A stretch of 38,636 bases of DNA from Nitrospiraceae bacterium (GTDB taxonomy: Bacteria; Nitrospirota; Nitrospiria; Nitrospirales; Nitrospiraceae), in the NCBI GenBank assembly GCA_919902665.1, contig CAKKRK010000189.1, forward strand, positions 1-38,636. Direction: 5' to 3'. A program made the position numbers and the translations under genes. Shown here one piece after another: positions 2,065 through 11,644 of the stretch. Below the pieces are notes generated by a model. That model searched no databases, had not been told where the DNA came from, and was given only the letters and a program-made list of their open reading frames with translations. Position 1 is the first letter of the stretch, and each line of letters starts with the position of its first letter.

Positions 2065-3018
2065 CTACTCCTTCGGTGGAACCGCAGATGAATGGTGGCT
2101 GGTAATCAGCCATTGTTTCCCATCCCACTTGTACGTAAAGGTGTATCGGGCTTTGACACTGGCCCCGGTTTTCTGAAATCTGAAGGTGTAGAGTCCCGTG
2201 TCGATCGCCGTGTTGCAATCGATCTCGATTTCACGCGAGTCAATGCTTCCCACTGGGTGGTTCTCGAGAAAATGGTGGAAGTAGTCCTCCTTGTCAACAG
2301 CTGTAAATCGGGGTCTGCTCGATACGGTCGGTAGAAGAAGGGATGTTGGTGCGTAATTAGCCGCAACCTTATGAACGTCTCCCGTCTGGAGGGCTCCATT
2401 CCAGCGGTCGAATAAGGCGGCGATCTGCTCCTCGCTGGCCTCCACACATTCTTCCGCATGTTGCGCAACTACTTGGTGAACATGTGTCGGAGGTGCGTCC
2501 ACCGTGGGCAGAGCGGACGAATGGTGGGTGGTGATCAACCATTGTTTCCCGTCCCACTTGTAGGTAAACGTATACCGCGCTTTCACAGCGGCACCGGTCT
2601 TCTTGAAGGTGAAGGTATAGAGTCCTGTATCGATCGCGGAATTGCAGTCAATCTCGATTTCACGAGCGTCTTGAGAGTCGATGTGCCCGACCGGTTGGTT
2701 TTCCAGAAAATGGTGAAAGTAGTCTTCTTTATCGTAGGGTGTGAGTCGTGGTTTGCTCGACACTGTCGGAAGCAACACGGACTTTGGCGCGTAGTTGGCG
2801 GAGACCTTATGAACATCCCCAGTTTGTAGTGAGGTATTCCAGCGGTCAAACAACGCTGCAATATCCTCCTCGGTGGCCGCCACACACACTTCGGAATGTT
2901 TCGGGACCACGTGGTTAAATTTATGAAGGGAATCGGCTTTCGCCGTTTCAACTGGTTTTCCCGCACAGCCCACTACGGTCACAGCAACAGCCGCCAGCAA
3001 TAAAAAAAATGCCCTCAT
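2065..3018 (-). CDS. Lipoprotein with two SgcJ/EcaC (SnoaL-like) domains
   Basis: The product is 317 residues from ATG 3018, which has a GGAGGAGAGG site just upstream; a longer frame to 3102 is less likely. The N-terminus is a lipoprotein signal (AFFLLLAAVAVTVVGCAG), so the protein is probably anchored in a membrane facing the periplasm. It contains two near-identical domains, roughly residues 45-165 and 180-315. Each has the SgcJ/EcaC-type pattern: CVAATEEDIAALFDRWN, then GDVHKV, then YAPKSVLLPTVSS, then EIDCNSAIDTGLYTF, then YTFTYKWDGKQWLITTHHSS. This fold (NTF2/SnoaL-like) covers small enzymes and ligand-binding proteins; the ligand here is unknown. The next gene upstream (3269-4156) encodes a paralogue with the same double-domain design. 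The second domain lacks a few residues between GSID and SREIEID relative to the first, so the copies have begun to diverge. Confidence 0.8.
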   Translation of the reverse strand: MRAFFLLLAAVAVTVVGCAGKPVETAKADSLHKFNHVVPKHSEVCVAATEEDIAALFDRWNTSLQTGDVHKVSANYAPKSVLLPTVSSKPRLTPYDKEDYFHHFLENQPVGHIDSQDAREIEIDCNSAIDTGLYTFTFKKTGAAVKARYTFTYKWDGKQWLITTHHSSALPTVDAPPTHVHQVVAQHAEECVEASEEQIAALFDRWNGALQTGDVHKVAANYAPTSLLLPTVSSRPRFTAVDKEDYFHHFLENHPVGSIDSREIEIDCNTAIDTGLYTFRFQKTGASVKARYTFTYKWDGKQWLITSHHSSAVPPKE

Positions 3019-3268
3019 GACCTCTCCTCCCCTTGTGGATTGATCACCCCCTGGGACGTTATGGATATGTAAAAACAGGTTGCCACGTGAAACAGAGCTC
3101 AAACTAAGGGGCCCAGTATAGTTTCGAGGAAGTCAGATTCGCAACTAGCCGTTCGTGGGAGGAGAGGATGCTTGGTAAGGTAGATACGTGTTCCTAAGTT
3201 ACTGGGTAGAAACTTGTCAGGCAGGGCGGTGTCCAGAGCTTTGAACACGACTCTGGCATTCGCTAAAG

Positions 3269-4156
3269 TTATTGAGGGTAGATTGACGAGTGGTCACTGG
3301 TGATCAACCATTGGAGGCCATCCCACTTGTAGATGATGCTGTATCGGGCGTTGACGATGGTTCCGGCCTTCTGGAAGGTAAAGGTATAGAGGCCTTCGTC
3401 GATTGCCGTGTTGCAGTCGATCTCGATCGTGCGGGACTGGACTTGCACCGAAGGTCGGTCTCTCAGGAAATGGCGAAAATAGTCTTCCTTGTCGTCCAGC
3501 GTGAGTCGGGGTTTCGTCGACGAGAGGGGAAGTAACACGGACTTCGCGGCGTAATGGGTCATGACCTTGTGGGCGTTGCCGCTCTGAAGTGATTCCTTCC
3601 ATCGATCCAAGAGGGCCTCGATTTCTTTTTCACTGGCGGCCACACACACTTCTGAATGTCGGGCCACCGCGTGGACGGGTTCCTCCGGTGGCGCTTGCTC
3701 TGCCGGCAACCTGGACGAATGGTGGCTGGTGATGAGCCACTGCGTTCCATCCCACTTATAGGTGAAGGTGTATCGGGCTTTCACGGTGACCCCGGTTTTC
3801 TGCAAGGTGAAGGAGTACAGGCCCTCATCGATTGCCGTATTGCAATCGAGCTCGATCGTACGGGACTCAATGCGGCCTTCCGGCTGATTCAGCTGGAAAT
3901 CACGGAAATAATCCACCTTCTCCTCAACGGTAAAGCGAGGCTTGCTCGAGAGCGTGGCGAGTAACACGGATTTTGGAGCGTAGTGGGCGACCACCTTGTG
4001 CGGATCGCCCGTCTTGAGCGATTCATTCCAGCGGTCGAACAGGGTGGCAATGTCTTGTTCACTTGCCGCGACGCAGACTTCCGTATGCTGCGGCACATCG
4101 GCAAAGCTCACGGTGGGAACGACGACAAGTACAAGCCACAACAAAAGTACTCGCAT
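3269..4156 (-). CDS. Secreted protein with two SgcJ/EcaC (SnoaL-like) domains
   Basis: The product is 295 residues from ATG 4156 (MRVLLLWLVLVVVP). AAAGG lies 7 nt upstream, which fits this ATG better than the in-frame TTG at 4162. The N-terminus is a cleavable signal peptide (cleavage likely after SFA) with no lipobox Cys, unlike its downstream paralogue. Two tandem domains follow, at about residues 25-150 and 165-295. Each repeats the pattern CVAASEQDIATLFDRWNESL, GDPHKV, YAPKSVLL, ELDCNTAIDEGLYSF and YTFTYKWDGTQWLITSHHSS. With the neighbouring gene this makes four related domains in about 2.1 kb, from gene and domain duplication. The fold is NTF2-like and the substrate is unknown. The two genes may share a transcript, although the 250-bp gap between them leaves room for a second promoter. 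Confidence 0.8.
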   Translation of the reverse strand: MRVLLLWLVLVVVPTVSFADVPQHTEVCVAASEQDIATLFDRWNESLKTGDPHKVVAHYAPKSVLLATLSSKPRFTVEEKVDYFRDFQLNQPEGRIESRTIELDCNTAIDEGLYSFTLQKTGVTVKARYTFTYKWDGTQWLITSHHSSRLPAEQAPPEEPVHAVARHSEVCVAASEKEIEALLDRWKESLQSGNAHKVMTHYAAKSVLLPLSSTKPRLTLDDKEDYFRHFLRDRPSVQVQSRTIEIDCNTAIDEGLYTFTFQKAGTIVNARYSIIYKWDGLQWLITSDHSSIYPQ

Positions 4157-4308
4157 GTACAAACCTTTCTCTGGTGCGAGGCGATTATCTTGGGCCTATA
4201 GTGGACAACATCATGATGCAAGCGCTGATAGAAATATTATATACCAGCTTTCATGTTTGGCTAGGATCCGGTCAATATCAGACCAACAACCGACTGTCAG
4301 AGATGAAA

Positions 4309-4675: not shown

Positions 4676-7600
4676 TCACGAAATCAGCGATGTCACTTGT
4701 GATACGTCTTGTATGATGCGGGTCCATGCTCCGTTGGGTCGATATCGATACCAGGTCCTGTCCTCTGGGTCGAGCACGACGAGATGGACCCACTCGTTGT
4801 GATAATAGTGCTGAAGCACTTCGTGTCGGGCAATCAATTTCTCGATTCCCTTCCGTGGGGCTTCAACCATCGTCAATAAACGCATCGGCTCGTGGTACGG
4901 CATCTCGCCGTTCATGACGGTCTGTCTGGCTAATCCAAGCCGGAGGTCGCTCCAAGGGCCGGACATGATGCCGAACCGTCCCACCACGTTGTGGTAGATC
5001 TTGCTGGCGCTCCCATAGACTTCGTTATCGACGGCGGAGAAATAATGCTCCATGTTGATCCATTGCGCCACGACCTGTGGAGCGGTAAGCAGCACCTCCA
5101 GGAAGCGATGGCTGGGATCTTCTCGATAGTCATACGAATGCATGAACACACGCCCCTGAAAATCCAAGCCCTTTGTCAAATCACGTCTGGCGATCAGGAA
5201 GGTGGTGTTGCTCGAGAGCCCCCACTCTGGGCGGACCTGACTCCAGTCGACACTCCGCTGGCGTACATGGGCTGAAGCCTGCGAGTCAGTGAGGGCCGGT
5301 AGGAGTTCAGGGAATCGGCCGCACCGCTCTTGGCTGGCTAGCTGCGCGGCTTCTTTCAAATCTTCCTGCAGTCTCGCCAAGTCAGTACGATGGGTGGGCG
5401 GGACGTCTTCCAGGTCGAACAGCTCAACGGCATCGGTGGTCGTATCCATCTGTCCAGCGAGGAAATGCGTGTCGGATGGAATCTCAAGGCCGGTCTTCCT
5501 CAAGCGATCCCTTACGAGATGACTGTTTGCCATCATGGCCAGCACACGCGCATTGGGTTTGCCTTCATTGCCTCCACAGGCTCCGCAATCGAGGGCCGAC
5601 TCATAGGGATTATTCTCCGACGTGCTACCGTGGGCACAGAACAGCACGAGGCGGGCAAAGTTCTTGGTCAGCCCCATCATCCGCAGCGCAGTGTCGACGG
5701 TCAGCGTCTGCTCCTCCAGCGTAAACCCGGTTCTCGTCAGCCGTTCCTTGTATCGCGACGAAGCCCGGGGATTCAGATCGTACTCTCGTTGCAGGGCCGT
5801 GACGAACGCATCGAGTGCCTCTGCCTTCAGGCCTACGCTCTCGGCCTCCTTGAGGTACAGCGCTTCCTGTGGGTTGGTTTCTTGAAGGACCCGCTGTCGG
5901 AGCCCTTCAATGAGTGAGGGCGTCATCCTGGCACTGCGCAATCCAAGTCTTTCCACAAGCGCCCTCCGAATCAGCTCCTGTTGTTCGACTTTGAGCATCT
6001 CTCGAGTCTCACTGGGTGACAGTTTGTCGACTGTGAGCGTCGTTGGGAGCGACGGCACGAACTGTTGCCGAAGCCAATTCGCAATCCGCCGGTAGAGAGA
6101 CGGAAGGAGCGTCTTTCCAAAGATCGGAAGGCTGTAAAACCAGCCGATCGATTCGACCATCACGTACGGTGTGATGACGTTTTCTTTCAGGTCATGCAGC
6201 AGGGTGTGCCCGGCATGGACCCACTTGGCCCAGGCCTGGTGCTTTGAAACCTGGTGATCGAGGTAGCTGCGAGGTATTTCACGGACTTCATTCTTTGCGC
6301 GCATGATGACCGGGAACTGTTCGGTGTCATGTTCCGTTCCCCACGCACGGTAGCGGATGAAGGCAGCGAAGAAACCGGCAAAGCCGAACGTCTCATGCGG
6401 CCCGACTGTTTCGAGGTGGCGACGAAACGGTTCCGATCGCACATCAATGCAGTAGACCGACTGTGAGTAGGGGCGAATCGAAGCGACTGCGTCGGGAGGT
6501 CCTGCCGAACGTCGGGAAGCCTCGATGAGTTGTCCAATCAGAGGCTCGTGATAGCCAGCCTCAAAGGCCTTCAGCCATATCGGTCCATGGTTCGATTCCG
6601 GGAAGGCTTCTATCCATTCAATGGCTTGTTTGAGATCCTGGGCCTGGCTCTCGGCCAACTGCACACCCTCGATACCCAGCGATCGCCCCAGCGTGAGGAG
6701 TCGGCGCGCGGCACCACGCCGACTTGCAGCCTGCTGCCTGGGAACGACGTCGGTACGGTAGCGAGTAAGCACCGTGCTCCACCCTTGGCCTTTCCGATGG
6801 GCCAACCGATCGACTTCTTCGGCATACAGTGCAGGCAAGTGGCCGGCGATCCGCTGCCGCCGCAGATAGTATTCTTCCGAATAGTCACGCATGTACGCGG
6901 CGATGTCCTCGAATCGTCCCTGAATGTCCAGGTAGTCCCGACAGGTTGCCTGCACAAGTTCTCGTGCATACCACAAGCGGATCGCCAGGAACTTCACAAG
7001 ACCCACGGGGTGGGTTTGCTGCCACGGGTAGTCCCGCTCCTCACCGCGCCATTTAATAAAGCCGGCCCAGCCGGGCAAGGCGGTCAACTGCAGCGACAAA
7101 TAATCTTGCTGCAGTTCCATCGGAATGCCCAACATCTCTAGGCTTTCCAGGAGCACGTCTTCCGGATAATCGGGTAGTGCGGCGATCTTGCGGCGGCTGT
7201 CGGCGATACCGAGAAGCGACCATTCTTGGCCCGCCAGGCGCTTCCACGCGTGGTAGAGTCCCTCCTCACGATCGGGCATGGGCCAGGCGGCATGGCCCTC
7301 GTCGAGAAAGGCTGAGCACCACTTGATCATTTGGTCATTGATACTTTGCACGATCGTGGTGCCGAGGGTGTCGTCACACCAGTGAGACAATGTCAGCCAC
7401 CGACAGAGCGAGGACTGGTTGTCAGTCACGACTTTTTGGATTCGATCGTCCAGAGAAGGCGTCTCAAGAACGAGTTCCAATTGGCGCGCAATGCGCTCAA
7501 TGAGATCTCTATCGGGATCTTCCAGCTGGTCATCGAGCGGCTCACGCGCCGGTGAGCAGAGTCCTTCCGTCAGACAGGCTCGCAACACCTCACCATGCGT

Positions 7601-7921
7601 GACCGTTCGCGAGCCAAGGGTGATCTGTCGATCCTGCGTCAACGGCTGCAGTGCGGTAGCCACATGCTCGAGGCGGATTCGACCGGAGGTCAGGTAGGCT
7701 CGATACACGTCGCTCGGGAGATAGCCGTCGCCGTTCAGAAACTGCTTGCCGCGTCGGACGGTTTCCTCAAAGGGAAGGTATTCCAGACTGTGGAGTGGAT
7801 TGTGGTGAACAAAGGTCCGCATCGGCCAGTACTGTGCGATCACTTCGCCGGCGAGTCGAACCACGCCGCGCAATTCCATTCGTCTCGATTCGAGGTCCAT
7901 CACGTCGTTCATTGTTGCCAT
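4676..7921 (-). CDS. dabA: DabA, inorganic carbon pump catalytic subunit (DUF2309)
   Basis: A 1081-residue DUF2309 protein, longer than the roughly 830-residue DabA of Halothiobacillus. DabA is a beta-carbonic-anhydrase-like zinc protein that, with membrane partner DabB, makes bicarbonate accumulation energy-dependent. The expected metal and catalytic residues are visible: C491 and D493 in YCIDVRSE, H764 in FCAHGS, and the Cys pair C779/C782 in DCGACGG. The N-terminal family signature FVHHNPLHSLEYLPFEE is also present. The start at 7921 is chosen because GAGGT lies 5 nt upstream; the frame is open to 8038 but that part overlaps the preceding gene. A second possible ATG at 7912 would give an ATGA overlap with the upstream stop. 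It is third in a four-gene operon and translationally coupled to the gene before it. Confidence 0.93.
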   Translation of the reverse strand: MATMNDVMDLESRRMELRGVVRLAGEVIAQYWPMRTFVHHNPLHSLEYLPFEETVRRGKQFLNGDGYLPSDVYRAYLTSGRIRLEHVATALQPLTQDRQITLGSRTVTHGEVLRACLTEGLCSPAREPLDDQLEDPDRDLIERIARQLELVLETPSLDDRIQKVVTDNQSSLCRWLTLSHWCDDTLGTTIVQSINDQMIKWCSAFLDEGHAAWPMPDREEGLYHAWKRLAGQEWSLLGIADSRRKIAALPDYPEDVLLESLEMLGIPMELQQDYLSLQLTALPGWAGFIKWRGEERDYPWQQTHPVGLVKFLAIRLWYARELVQATCRDYLDIQGRFEDIAAYMRDYSEEYYLRRQRIAGHLPALYAEEVDRLAHRKGQGWSTVLTRYRTDVVPRQQAASRRGAARRLLTLGRSLGIEGVQLAESQAQDLKQAIEWIEAFPESNHGPIWLKAFEAGYHEPLIGQLIEASRRSAGPPDAVASIRPYSQSVYCIDVRSEPFRRHLETVGPHETFGFAGFFAAFIRYRAWGTEHDTEQFPVIMRAKNEVREIPRSYLDHQVSKHQAWAKWVHAGHTLLHDLKENVITPYVMVESIGWFYSLPIFGKTLLPSLYRRIANWLRQQFVPSLPTTLTVDKLSPSETREMLKVEQQELIRRALVERLGLRSARMTPSLIEGLRQRVLQETNPQEALYLKEAESVGLKAEALDAFVTALQREYDLNPRASSRYKERLTRTGFTLEEQTLTVDTALRMMGLTKNFARLVLFCAHGSTSENNPYESALDCGACGGNEGKPNARVLAMMANSHLVRDRLRKTGLEIPSDTHFLAGQMDTTTDAVELFDLEDVPPTHRTDLARLQEDLKEAAQLASQERCGRFPELLPALTDSQASAHVRQRSVDWSQVRPEWGLSSNTTFLIARRDLTKGLDFQGRVFMHSYDYREDPSHRFLEVLLTAPQVVAQWINMEHYFSAVDNEVYGSASKIYHNVVGRFGIMSGPWSDLRLGLARQTVMNGEMPYHEPMRLLTMVEAPRKGIEKLIARHEVLQHYYHNEWVHLVVLDPEDRTWYRYRPNGAWTRIIQDVSQVTSLIS

Positions 7922-9213
7922 ATGGTACCTCGAGAAACTCCGTCGACCGGCTGTGTGGCCATGGTGGACGCAAACCAGTTGTTCGGGGCCAATCCGAGCA
8001 GAGCCAATACCAGAATCGTGGCGACGAGTGCCCCCCATTCACCGGGTACGACGTCGTGATGCCGTATGTCACTCCGCTTCACGCCGAATAACAGCCGTTG
8101 GACAGCGCTCATGATGTACCAGGAGGCGGCCAGCCATGCTGAAAGAATAATAAGAAGACCGAACAGCGAGGGGATCGGTGAATGGAGCAGCAACCCCATG
8201 AAGCCCGCGAACACCCCGAAGGGCGGCAGGCCCATCGCCGCCAGCGCGAGGAGCGAGAGCAGGACTCCATAGCTCGGCATGAACGAGGCCAACCCACTGA
8301 TCGACAGCGGATCCACATCATCCCCGTACCTCGTCCGGATGATTTGCCAGGCAATAAGCAGCCCGCACGTGGCGAGGCTGATCGCTGCGATGAGTACGGC
8401 CGCGCGCGAGGTCGCCATATGCGACGTGGCGGCAAACCACCAGAGCACTGAGAAGAAGGAAAGACTGCCGTAGGACAACATCAGTCGAACGCGTGTCTGT
8501 GCCAGCGCCTTGACCGCCCCATAGAGGGCGCCGGCCAGGGCAAAGAGGCTGACGAGACCGGTGATGCTACTGGGTACGGTCGGAAGCATCGCAACCATGA
8601 CGTGCAGGCCGACGGAAGGGAGGAGGACCGCAGCAAAAGACGGGAGGTTGCCCGGTAGGCGCGTGAGCGCCGTCAGATATCCGGTATGGAACGGGAGGAG
8701 CGGGATGAGGACCACGCAGGTCAGGAACGCGGCTGAGGACGACATCGGAGGATCAGTGAACGCAGCCATGATCACACCCAAGCCCGCGAGACCGAAGAGG
8801 CCGATGCCCCACCAGGAAATGGGCCACAGGGTCGTGTGGTGTTTGATCAACAGGCCGGTGATGGTGGCCAGCAGTGCCAGCAAGAAAAAGTGGCCAATCA
8901 CACTAGGATGGGAGATGACCCCAATTCCCAACCCGAGACAGAGCAGAGTCATCAGCCAGGAAAGACGGTGGTCCTGATGAGTCGGTTGTCCCAAGAGTGA
9001 GATGATTGAGGCGATCGGGAGCAGATACAGCAGCAAGGGACCTTCCGGCGCGGTCACACCCGCCGCGGCAATCGGGGCCAGACTGAGAACCGACCAGAGC
9101 AGGCAGGATGTCTTGAGTTGGTGTGGGTCCCGCCAGCAGAATATTCGACCGGTCAGCGCACCGATCAGCGGCACAGTAGTCGAGAGCCAGGGGAAAAGGG
9201 CGTGGCCCGTCAT
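7909..9213 (-). CDS. NuoM/MrpD-like membrane subunit in the dab operon
   Basis: The product is 434 residues, almost entirely hydrophobic, with about a dozen predicted membrane helices. It resembles the antiporter-like subunits of complex I (NuoL/M/N). The segment GAVKALAQTRVRLMLSYGSLSFFSVL matches the family stretch normally written as Q-(T/D)-(D)-(I/L)-K-(K/R)-(L)-(L/I)-A-Y-S-S, and GLPPFGVFAGFMGLL matches the late-helix motif GIPPxxGFxxK. The usual Asp and Lys of the first motif are replaced by Arg-Val-Arg, and the Lys after the second motif is absent, so it may be degenerate as an ion pump. The start is the ATG at 9213, which overlaps the dabB stop as ATGA; an in-frame GTG at 9222 is less likely. 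It sits between dabB and dabA, so it probably belongs to the same membrane complex. Two-gene dabAB operons lack it. Confidence 0.8.
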   Translation of the reverse strand: MTGHALFPWLSTTVPLIGALTGRIFCWRDPHQLKTSCLLWSVLSLAPIAAAGVTAPEGPLLLYLLPIASIISLLGQPTHQDHRLSWLMTLLCLGLGIGVISHPSVIGHFFLLALLATITGLLIKHHTTLWPISWWGIGLFGLAGLGVIMAAFTDPPMSSSAAFLTCVVLIPLLPFHTGYLTALTRLPGNLPSFAAVLLPSVGLHVMVAMLPTVPSSITGLVSLFALAGALYGAVKALAQTRVRLMLSYGSLSFFSVLWWFAATSHMATSRAAVLIAAISLATCGLLIAWQIIRTRYGDDVDPLSISGLASFMPSYGVLLSLLALAAMGLPPFGVFAGFMGLLLHSPIPSLFGLLIILSAWLAASWYIMSAVQRLLFGVKRSDIRHHDVVPGEWGALVATILVLALLGLAPNNWFASTMATQPVDGVSRGTIWQQ

Positions 9214-10925
9214 CGTGACCACCCCTGCTCCTGCTTATCGATCCAATGGACCACTCGCATGATGGCGCGTCCGGCGCGAGCATACAATTCGTCTGCATAG
9301 AGTCGGTTCATGAGGGCCACGTAGAGTCGATTGCGGACATGATCGATCCAGGACGGCATCCACACACGTCGCCCATGGGCTTGCAGGTAGAGATAACACC
9401 AGCCGAGCACCGTCAGCCCAGTGGAGCCGACGATGATGAGGTCGAACAGCCAGTCGGGAAGGTCCGCCGCCTTGAAATAAGATGCCACTTCCGCAGGGTT
9501 CGGATAGAGGAACGCCGTGAACGACTCAACGGCAAACAGATAGATGAAGATGACGAACAGCAAGGTCACCAACATGGTCGACGAGACTTTCCAGGAAGCG
9601 ACCGCCCGTAGTCGTGTGAGCGTCAAAATCGCTTGCGACGACGTGATCCAGATGAAGAAGAGGATGATGACAGTCCCCTGTGATTCCAAGAGCGGAATAT
9701 GCAGGACACCATGCGTCACCAGCAGAATGAGCAGCGGGATGACCAGCGTCGTCGCGAACCCGGTTGACCAGGTGAGTCTGGAAAGTTGTCCCTCCTCATG
9801 GTGCGCCTGGTCGTGTTTCGTGTGGGGAAAGTGCGGCTCCAAACGGGCTTTCTGAATGACGTTTCCGCAATTGAGGAAGACGGTGGCCTTGAAGAGGCCG
9901 TGCGCGATGAGGTGGAACACCGCGAGCGAGAAGGCGCCCAAGCCGCACTCCATGATCATGTAGCCCATCTGGCCGATCGTCGAAAGCCCGAGCGTCTTTT
10001 TGATGTCGTTCTGCACCAGCATCATGGAGGCGCCGATGACCGCCGTCGCGGTGCCGATCACAAAGGCCACATGCAGGGTGGTGGAACTCATGCCGAAGAG
10101 CGGGGCCAACCGATTGATCAAGAACCCGCCCGCATTGATGATGCCGGCATGCAGGAGGCCATGCACGGGGGTCGGGGCAAACAGCGAACTCGGTAACCAC
10201 AAGTGGAGCGGGAACTGGGCGGACTTGCCCATGGCCCCCACGAACATCAGCAACGTAATGGCCGTGGCGGCATCGATGTCCATGCCGGGCCAGAGCGCGA
10301 CCGTCGTGCGCGAGGCGGTCGCTCGTGCAAACAGGTCCGGCAGCTCGAGTGTACCGTACACTTGGTAGGCGAGGATGATCCCCATCAGCAAGGCCATGTC
10401 GGCAAGGCGCAGGACGGTAAACGTCTTATACGCGCCCTCAAGGGTTGGGGTGTGGCTATGATTGTGGGCCAGGAGGTAAAGCAGGTAGCTGAGTAGCTGC
10501 CAAAATAAAAACAGCATCATGAGATTCGAGCTCGACACCATGCAGATCAGCACAAAATCCGTGAGGCAGATAAGCGCCAGGTACCGGCGGTAGTGGAGAT
10601 CTTGATACATGTAGTTCGTGGAATAGGCATAGATGATCGTACAAACAGCGGCAATCAGCGTCATCATGACCCCGCTGAGCCGGTCGATGTAGAAGCCGAT
10701 CGGGATGGTCAAGGAAGCGGCCGTAGCTGGGGCATAGAACCGGATGGTTATTGGCCCGGAGGTCGTGACGACGTAGAGCGTGACGGCCGACCCGATACAG
10801 GCCGCCCCTATCAGCCACGTGGCGATCTTCGCGTGAGCATATCGAGTCGCGTCCTCGGCGCAGAGCACGACCAGTGCGGCTACCAGCGGAAGAAACGGGA
10901 CAAGTAGGAACACCCAGGTCAACAC
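9210..10925 (-). CDS. dabB: DabB, NuoL-like membrane subunit of the inorganic carbon pump
   Basis: A 571-residue NuoL/ND5-like protein with many membrane helices. Recognisable segments are IPIGFYIDRLSGVMM, the core FVGAMGKSAQFPLHLWLP with its conserved Lys, and the half-channel motif LVQNDIKKTLGLSTIGQMGYM, followed by HLIAHGLFKATVFLNCG. DabB is the membrane partner that energises DabA with an ion gradient. The GTG at 10925 is preferred because AGAGG lies 7 nt upstream; the frame is open to a GTG at 10958, but those residues overlap the U-tract of the leader hairpin. At the position of NuoL Glu144 the sequence has Gln (LFLFWQLLSYLL, Q143). The C-terminus (MNRLYADELYARAGRAIMRV) follows the NuoL pattern. 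It is the first gene of the operon. Confidence 0.9.
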   Translation of the reverse strand: MLTWVFLLVPFLPLVAALVVLCAEDATRYAHAKIATWLIGAACIGSAVTLYVVTTSGPITIRFYAPATAASLTIPIGFYIDRLSGVMMTLIAAVCTIIYAYSTNYMYQDLHYRRYLALICLTDFVLICMVSSSNLMMLFLFWQLLSYLLYLLAHNHSHTPTLEGAYKTFTVLRLADMALLMGIILAYQVYGTLELPDLFARATASRTTVALWPGMDIDAATAITLLMFVGAMGKSAQFPLHLWLPSSLFAPTPVHGLLHAGIINAGGFLINRLAPLFGMSSTTLHVAFVIGTATAVIGASMMLVQNDIKKTLGLSTIGQMGYMIMECGLGAFSLAVFHLIAHGLFKATVFLNCGNVIQKARLEPHFPHTKHDQAHHEEGQLSRLTWSTGFATTLVIPLLILLVTHGVLHIPLLESQGTVIILFFIWITSSQAILTLTRLRAVASWKVSSTMLVTLLFVIFIYLFAVESFTAFLYPNPAEVASYFKAADLPDWLFDLIIVGSTGLTVLGWCYLYLQAHGRRVWMPSWIDHVRNRLYVALMNRLYADELYARAGRAIMRVVHWIDKQEQGWSR

Positions 10926-10940
10926 ACGATCGCCTCTGAA

Positions 10941-10995
10941 AAGAAAAAAGCCAACCACAATAGGACGATGCGAAATCGTCCCAGACGGTTGGCTT
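10941..10995 (-). terminator. Terminator-like hairpin with U-tract just before dabB (candidate attenuator)
   Basis: Read on the minus strand, AAGCCAACC (10987-10995) pairs perfectly with GGTTGGCTT (10948-10956). Inside it a second stem, GGACGAT with ATCGTCC (10963-10969 and 10975-10981), closes a 5-nt loop. The hairpin is followed at once by TTTTTTCTTTT (10940-10950), the hallmark of an intrinsic terminator. It ends about 15 nt before the dabB GTG. No gene is transcribed toward it within 1.2 kb upstream on this strand except the distant vapBC pair, so attenuation of dabB is more likely than ordinary termination. Confidence 0.7.
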
Positions 10996-11123
10996 GTACT
11001 GCGACCGGCCTCTCATGCGAACTGCTGGTCGCCCTACGGCCCAATGAGGGAAGAACCAGGCATTCTGCCTATCCACAAGAAATTATGAGGATGGACAGCA
11101 TTGCCGTACTAGTAAATGCGGCA
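10996..11123 (-). promoter_or_regulatory. Structured 5' leader of the dab operon
   Basis: Between the candidate promoter and the terminator-like hairpin the minus strand can form several further helices. AGGCA pairs with TGCCT around a 3-nt loop (11058-11070). GCGACC pairs with GGTCGC (11027-11032 with 11001-11006). CTCAT (11044-11048) could pair with ATGAG (11012-11016), which conflicts with the GCGACC helix region. I could not match this to a known riboswitch class by eye. Together with the downstream hairpin it makes a leader of about 190 nt. Confidence 0.45.
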
Positions 11124-11129
11124 CCATGA

Positions 11130-11156
11130 ATAATACGGTTCGGAGGACAACGTCAA
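11130..11156 (-). promoter_or_regulatory. Candidate sigma-70 promoter for the dab operon
   Basis: On the minus strand there is TTGACG (11151-11156) and, 15 nt further on, TATTAT (11130-11135). The spacer is 2 nt shorter than ideal. Transcription from it would give a leader of about 195 nt before dabB. Support is sequence pattern only. Confidence 0.4.
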
Positions 11157-11299: not shown

Positions 11300-11644
11300 A
11301 TGGAAAACGCGATACGCAGCGCAATCATCAAGTTCGAGCAGGAGTTCCTTGGACGAGGTCCGGATGAGGTTCGTGCGCTGGTCGCACGAGACCTCGTTGT
11401 TGTCCGGCTGAAGGGCGTTCTCACGCCGGCTGAGCGGCAGCTGGCCAAGACAACGGAAGGGGTCGAGATGGTAAAGCAACTTCGGCAAAACTTGATTGCT
11501 CAGGGCCGTGATAAGCTCTGCGAACAGGTCAGTGAGATCACCGGGGCCAAAGTTCTTGGCCTGTTCACCGATATCGATGTGCAGCTCGGAGAACGGGTGT
11601 TCGTCTTTACAATGGATCGAGAACTTCAGAATGGAGCTCGGTAG
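11300..11644 (+). CDS. DUF2294 domain protein
   Basis: The product is 114 residues from ATG 11300 with GGAAG 5 nt upstream. The frame extends back to 11126, but that part would overlap the dab promoter and has no family similarity. The protein matches the DUF2294 pattern: FEQEFLGRGPDEVRALVARD, then VVVRLKGVLTPAERQLAKT, then GVEMVKQLRQNLI, then TDIDVQLGERVFVFTMDREL. The family is small, soluble and of unknown biochemical function. It is divergent from the dab operon, so the two could share control elements in the 374-bp gap. A relic of the same gene lies at 12905-13013 and a distant homologue at 14721-15113. Confidence 0.85.
   Translation: MENAIRSAIIKFEQEFLGRGPDEVRALVARDLVVVRLKGVLTPAERQLAKTTEGVEMVKQLRQNLIAQGRDKLCEQVSEITGAKVLGLFTDIDVQLGERVFVFTMDRELQNGAR

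Follow-up and report, generated by a model that had tools for sequence, protein, structure and literature searches.

The leader of dabB in a Nitrospiraceae genome was found to carry a conserved RNA element, in which an aptamer-like hairpin is followed directly by a strong intrinsic terminator (11045–10942, minus strand) and then by the dabB start. We consider it probable that this element is a cis-acting, riboswitch-like transcription attenuator of inorganic-carbon uptake genes in the Nitrospirales, which would be OFF by default and turned ON by a carbon-status signal. The stretch of DNA analyzed here, referred to as the window, was 38,636 nucleotides long and lay on contig C189 of a 3.56-Mb Nitrospira assembly. 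Its minus strand encodes an operon in the order dabB, a second NuoM/N-like membrane subunit, and dabA (Table 1). As read from the sequence, dabB starts with GTG at 10925, and AGAGG is located upstream at 10937–10933. The neighbor upstream of the leader, mpsC, is divergent and no co-directional gene lies upstream, which agrees with the preliminary description, where no upstream gene requiring a terminator had been seen. A divergent mpsC also adjoins many other copies of the element (e.g., L101, 2726–3274, minus strand), and mpsC may encode a component for the uptake of carbon or ions. SnoaL/CaMKII_AD-like domain proteins are encoded next to dabA in the window (2065–3102 and 3269–4162, minus strand), and one is encoded between SulP and dabA in L119 (2384–3286); they are possibly an unrecognized accessory to carbon uptake.

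Table 1. Features of the dabB leader, the dab operon, and the divergent neighbor in the window.
Feature	Coordinates	Strand	Basis or remark
Intrinsic terminator (GCC common to terminator and core)	10942..10995	-	Folding, anchor alignment
Aptamer-like core	10991..11042	-	122 anchor-aligned copies; mutual information; pair counts
Accessory hairpin P0 (GGCA..TGCC outer, CTGTCCATCC..GGATAGGCAG inner)	11059..11105	-	RNAalifold consensus of 32 leaders with the same promoter
Promoter-like TTGACG-N15-TATTAT	11130..11156	-	Consensus match and constant position only
dabB, putative regulated gene	9210..10925	-	PF00361 and PF00662; start from sequence
Second NuoM/N-like membrane subunit of the dab operon	7909..9222	-	PF00361; NuoM/N-type NCBIfam matches
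dabA, inorganic carbon transporter subunit	4676..8038	-	PF10070, 863 bits
mpsC, divergent neighbor upstream of the dabB leader	11300-11644	+	PF10057; start probably 11300, not 11126

The terminator consists of an outer stem (AAGCCAACC/GGTTGGCTT) and an inner stem (GGGACGAT/ATCGTCC) at 10995–10948 on the minus strand, followed by TTTTTTCTTTT, and the sequence bore out the 9-bp outer stem, inner stem, and U-run that had been described before dabB. Its stability was −24.1 kcal/mol in the folding of L173, the element of which is identical to that of the window. The 183-nt stretch before dabB folded at −71.5 kcal/mol (z = −3.95), and none of 200 shuffles was equally stable. The core in the window comprises GGC(C), the short P1 (GUA:UAC, 11037–11035 with 10998–10996), a GG/AG internal loop, P2 (11032–11024 with 11009–11001), an AA linker, and GCC (10993–10991). 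The accessory hairpin P0 belongs to the promoter-bearing type of leader and was not evident upstream of the core in copies outside this type. Three upstream helices, two of them mutually exclusive, had been proposed; the helices are present as P0, P1, and P2, while the exclusive pair was redefined. It is best defined as the extension of P1 (GGC at ~11041–11039 with GCC at 10993–10991) versus the terminator base, in which this GCC pairs with GGC at 10952–10950.

A promoter-like site was identified upstream of these structures; in most dabB leaders of Nitrospira, its TTGACG occupies a constant position ~88 nt upstream of GTAGGG. In a promoter scan over all leaders, the best scores were little higher than those in shuffles (7.5 and 7.1, respectively). 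From the location of this predicted promoter, transcription probably starts upstream of the hairpin and not downstream, the latter being the outcome that the preliminary description had named as speaking against a leader RNA. In tandem dab loci (L017, L020, L036, and others), the second dabB has a similar promoter-like site (TTGACG-N15-TATTAA) upstream but no RNA element.

The conservation of the element was evaluated using 122 copies aligned via conserved anchors alone, with structure not being used. The consensus was GGY-N(0-3)-GUA-GG-[P2, 9 bp]-AG-URC-AA-GCC, after which came the terminator. Among the eight closest dabB genes (protein identity of 83–100%), the leaders have in common the core GTAGGG, a hairpin, and CAGTACAAGCC, then the terminator, whereas the terminator loop and much else vary. 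In one of the eight (L031; G034:C51, ~5420–5540), the terminator was kept and the core was degenerate, having lost the half that contains GTAGGG; this locus is the second dab copy of its genome and represents a natural broken copy of the element. When the 1653 column pairs were ranked by corrected mutual information, the top seven were all predicted P2 or terminator pairs, and the eighth joined facing bases of the internal loop, where GxG goes with AxA. In a MAFFT alignment of 66 diverse copies, two-sided changes were observed at 16 of the 22 pairs, in 151 cells as compared to 49 ± 7 in shuffles, and 93% of the cells were paired as compared to at most 47% when the partners were slid. The first 28 leaders gave a matching picture. 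The covarying pairs that had been called for as a check were thus found, with the stems conserved among relatives. Independently of the terminator, the core upstream of it shows high conservation and covariation, so that the 5′ leader holds a conserved, covarying aptamer-like domain, as terminator-type riboswitches do.

The sequence GCC, at the junction of the core and the terminator, was constant in 121 of the 122 copies, the exception being ACC in L109, and it can be used twice, either in the terminator base or as the partner of the upstream GGY. Because GCC can pair with the upstream GGY instead, the aptamer and the terminator are mutually exclusive. GGY was complementary to GCC in 111 of the 122 copies, as compared to 28.6 ± 4.5 when the upstream letters were shuffled. 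Folding of transcripts ending just after GCC gave a mean probability of 0.92 for the GGY:GCC helix; for the full transcript, the probability was 0.00, and that of the terminator base was 1.00. A control calls for caution: when the upstream block was shuffled, GCC still paired somewhere in the block with a probability of 0.57, as compared to 0.91. The GGY:GCC helix hardly varies and its covariation is weak, with one full compensation (GGT with ACC in L109). Folding and complementarity, less clearly borne out by this control, are thus the evidence for a strand common to the aptamer and the expression platform in exclusive folds, as expected for a riboswitch. A conserved antiterminator pairing with AACC in the terminator arm was rejected, as many copies before SulP genes have GGTT there and a compensated 3′ arm.

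The layout is that of an ON-type transcriptional riboswitch, and its simplest reading is an ON switch that is OFF by default. RNA polymerase would first make the elongated hairpin composed of GGY, GUA:UAC, the GG/AG internal loop, P2, AA, and GCC. If this hairpin were held closed, it would keep GCC from the terminator base and the polymerase would read into dabB; if not, the terminator would zip up with GCC and transcription would stop ~25 nt before the start codon. Candidates for holding the hairpin are an ion, a protein, and a small molecule; uptake would be turned ON once a carbon-status signal had bound to the conserved internal loop. We infer that the RNA terminates transcription in the cell, that the switch is of the ON type, that a small molecule and not a protein is bound, and that the signal reports carbon status.

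Genomes were searched for the element by pattern and by covariance models. A total of 29 distinct leaders were gathered by pattern, and a covariance model (R1) was built from 28 of them. R1 searches of whole genomes, performed without regard to genes, retrieved the element in 63 of 79 genomes of the genus and in 113 of 396 genomes across the phylum, all of which belonged to three families of one order. With a broader model (R2) built from 66 diverse copies and matches accepted at E up to 0.05, the element was found in 186 of the 236 genomes and 30 of the 37 genera of the Nitrospirales. When 84,980 species genomes were scanned by pattern, 64 stretches were retrieved; one came from an assembly labeled Nitrosospira and the others from Nitrospirota. 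Among 34 genus relatives searched, all 24 with a DabB match below E = 1e-200 carried the element; of the other ten, only three did (G008, G009, and G021), with copies before SulP or dabA. Within the genus, the element thus accompanies dab. A dab locus can nevertheless lack it: N. moscoviensis (G060) carries a single copy for five dabA matches, and in G088 dabA occurs with no copy at all. The window genome contains a single confident copy, which is that at dabB. A weak R2 match (24.7 bits) was located at G039:C1:1396139–1396236 (minus strand), directly before a dabA match (1393165–1396050), and degenerate or variant copies below the threshold therefore probably exist. In L044 (G019:C7), an intact dabA follows a dabB match that is confined to the last 104 residues (94% identity), and no element was found in the genome.

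The first downstream gene was assigned by translated search for 134 distinct copies, which are distinct sequences and not independent events, and the families were confirmed by Pfam on examples. For 130 copies, the element directly preceded dabB (76), a SulP family gene (20), mnhE of an Mrp operon (19), or a stand-alone dabA (15); the remaining four were other genes (three) or cut off (one). In L101 (G042), three copies in a row precede SulP, dabA, and mnhE, and this set is repeated in G471. The Mrp operon is located directly after dabA at many target loci and thus probably has a part in carbon uptake. Matches of the SulP proteins to BicA score far below the BicA equivalog cut-off, and bicarbonate is therefore only their presumed substrate; with this proviso, the downstream genes have a function in common, as do those behind terminator-type riboswitches. 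The copy in L179 precedes a 365-aa protein (2094–3191) that remotely resembles carboxysomal carbonic anhydrase (PF20686, 24.1 bits with a cut-off of 21.5; far below the NCBIfam cut-off) and sits outside any carboxysome locus. One copy precedes a 790-aa protein without a Pfam match; in L160 (4018–7439), two copies flank this protein, the second being located before dabB. An insert of ~140–300 nt, common to L046, L049, and L054 in three genomes, separates the element from dabB and is perhaps a small mobile element.

This gene set favors inorganic-carbon status over Na+ alone as the signal. Tentatively, we put forward as a plausible reading a class of riboswitches for inorganic carbon itself (bicarbonate, carbonate, or CO2), or for a metabolite signaling that these autotrophs are short of carbon, which would coordinate the carbon uptake systems of the Nitrospirales. 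Bicarbonate as the ligand would fit an OFF logic better than an ON logic, and a metabolite rising when carboxylation stalls would fit the latter. The hairpin could instead be the site for an RNA-binding antiterminator protein, as the RAT hairpin is for LicT and SacY, which we regard as unlikely yet the weightiest of the other explanations. A protein could make equal use of the conserved loop bases, and the targets of BglG and LicT are hairpins with internal loops that overlap the 5′ arm of a terminator. The element shows the analogous arrangement, although RAT hairpins are shorter. The BglG-type RNA-binding domain (PF03123) was detected in four control genomes and in none of 59 genomes of the genus, the ANTAR domain (PF03861) was absent from the window genome and from 47 of the 59, and no regulator gene was consistently found beside the copies; an effector from an undescribed family of RNA-binding proteins is conceivable. 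Two other attenuator types were rejected: a short ORF with a ribosome-binding site, as in a leader-peptide attenuator, was present in 2 of 121 leaders as compared to 9.2 expected from shuffles and was thus depleted, and a PyrR-like reading of the GAGAGGC motif was dropped, since copies with a short GTTTCGG loop lack the motif.

The Mrp/Mnh antiporter operons among the targets might suggest a Na+- or pH-sensing riboswitch that adjusts ion-coupled transporters and is functionally akin to the Na+-I and Li+ riboswitches, and the terminator-based ON logic proposed here is also that of Na+-I switches (PMC9337991). We consider this improbable, as the target Mrp operons are often directly behind dabA, none of the classified copies is located at a PF00999 Na+/H+ exchanger even though such exchangers are present in element-bearing genomes, and the Rfam library gave no match. 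Still more improbable, almost to the point of dismissal, is that the leader holds just an intrinsic terminator, or a small independent RNA, and does no regulatory switching. The most stable feature is indeed an ordinary terminator, and one weak match (L198, 36 bits), which is the third of the three copies before other genes, resembles a plain terminator; against this stand the conservation and covariation of the core itself, the location of nearly all copies before one functional group of genes, and the divergent upstream gene in the window. A carbon-responsive attenuator is the reading that we retain. The regulatory leader RNA of the preliminary description was upheld in its conserved leader with a terminator, competing fold, and coherent genes, and the carbon- or ion-sensing small-molecule riboswitch is a further step that we infer.

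The 4227 families of Rfam gave no match at the gathering threshold for the window and seven loci, with only unrelated chance matches at relaxed E-values. The literature searched yielded neither a bicarbonate or CO2 riboswitch in those words nor any other RNA that senses inorganic carbon. In this literature, riboswitches were not mentioned together with DUF2309, as DabA was formerly called, and no orphan riboswitch candidate was linked to dabA or bicarbonate. A genome survey of the Nitrospirales from 2025 deals with guanidine where it speaks of riboswitches, and neither bicarbonate nor carbonic anhydrase appears in it (PMC12342949). In the Na+-I riboswitch (DUF1646 motif), which precedes ion-transport genes, the aptamer overlaps the terminator stem and the ligand blocks termination (PMC9337991). 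The element would be alike in its terminator-type ON logic; however, Na+-I is built from two separate substructures, the conserved bases of which lie at the bottom of P1 and in the P2 loop, whereas the element is a single elongated hairpin, in which the internal loops are conserved and the loop varies, and precedes inorganic-carbon rather than sodium genes. The Li+-I and Li+-II riboswitches (nhaA-I and nhaA-II) are likewise small leader RNAs that control transporter genes, mostly through ribosome access according to the authors (PMC9646797), and differ in conserved sequence. With the orphan riboswitch candidates from comparative genomics, the element has in common a covarying leader RNA and coherent genes. 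The absence of an Rfam match and of literature on such a switch supports the novelty claimed earlier; the element appears to be a new class that would work like a terminator-type riboswitch, with riboswitch status in the strict sense hinging on ligand binding.

Nitrospira are widespread nitrite oxidizers, and to our knowledge, little is known about the sensing of inorganic carbon in chemolithoautotrophs other than cyanobacteria. Since four kinds of carbon uptake gene stand behind one small RNA element, this question can be tested directly with purified RNA and a few candidate signals. If the signal were inorganic carbon, this would be the first such RNA sensor known to us. The covariance model also offers a route to unrecognized carbon uptake genes in the Nitrospirales, as the carbonic-anhydrase-like gene suggests.
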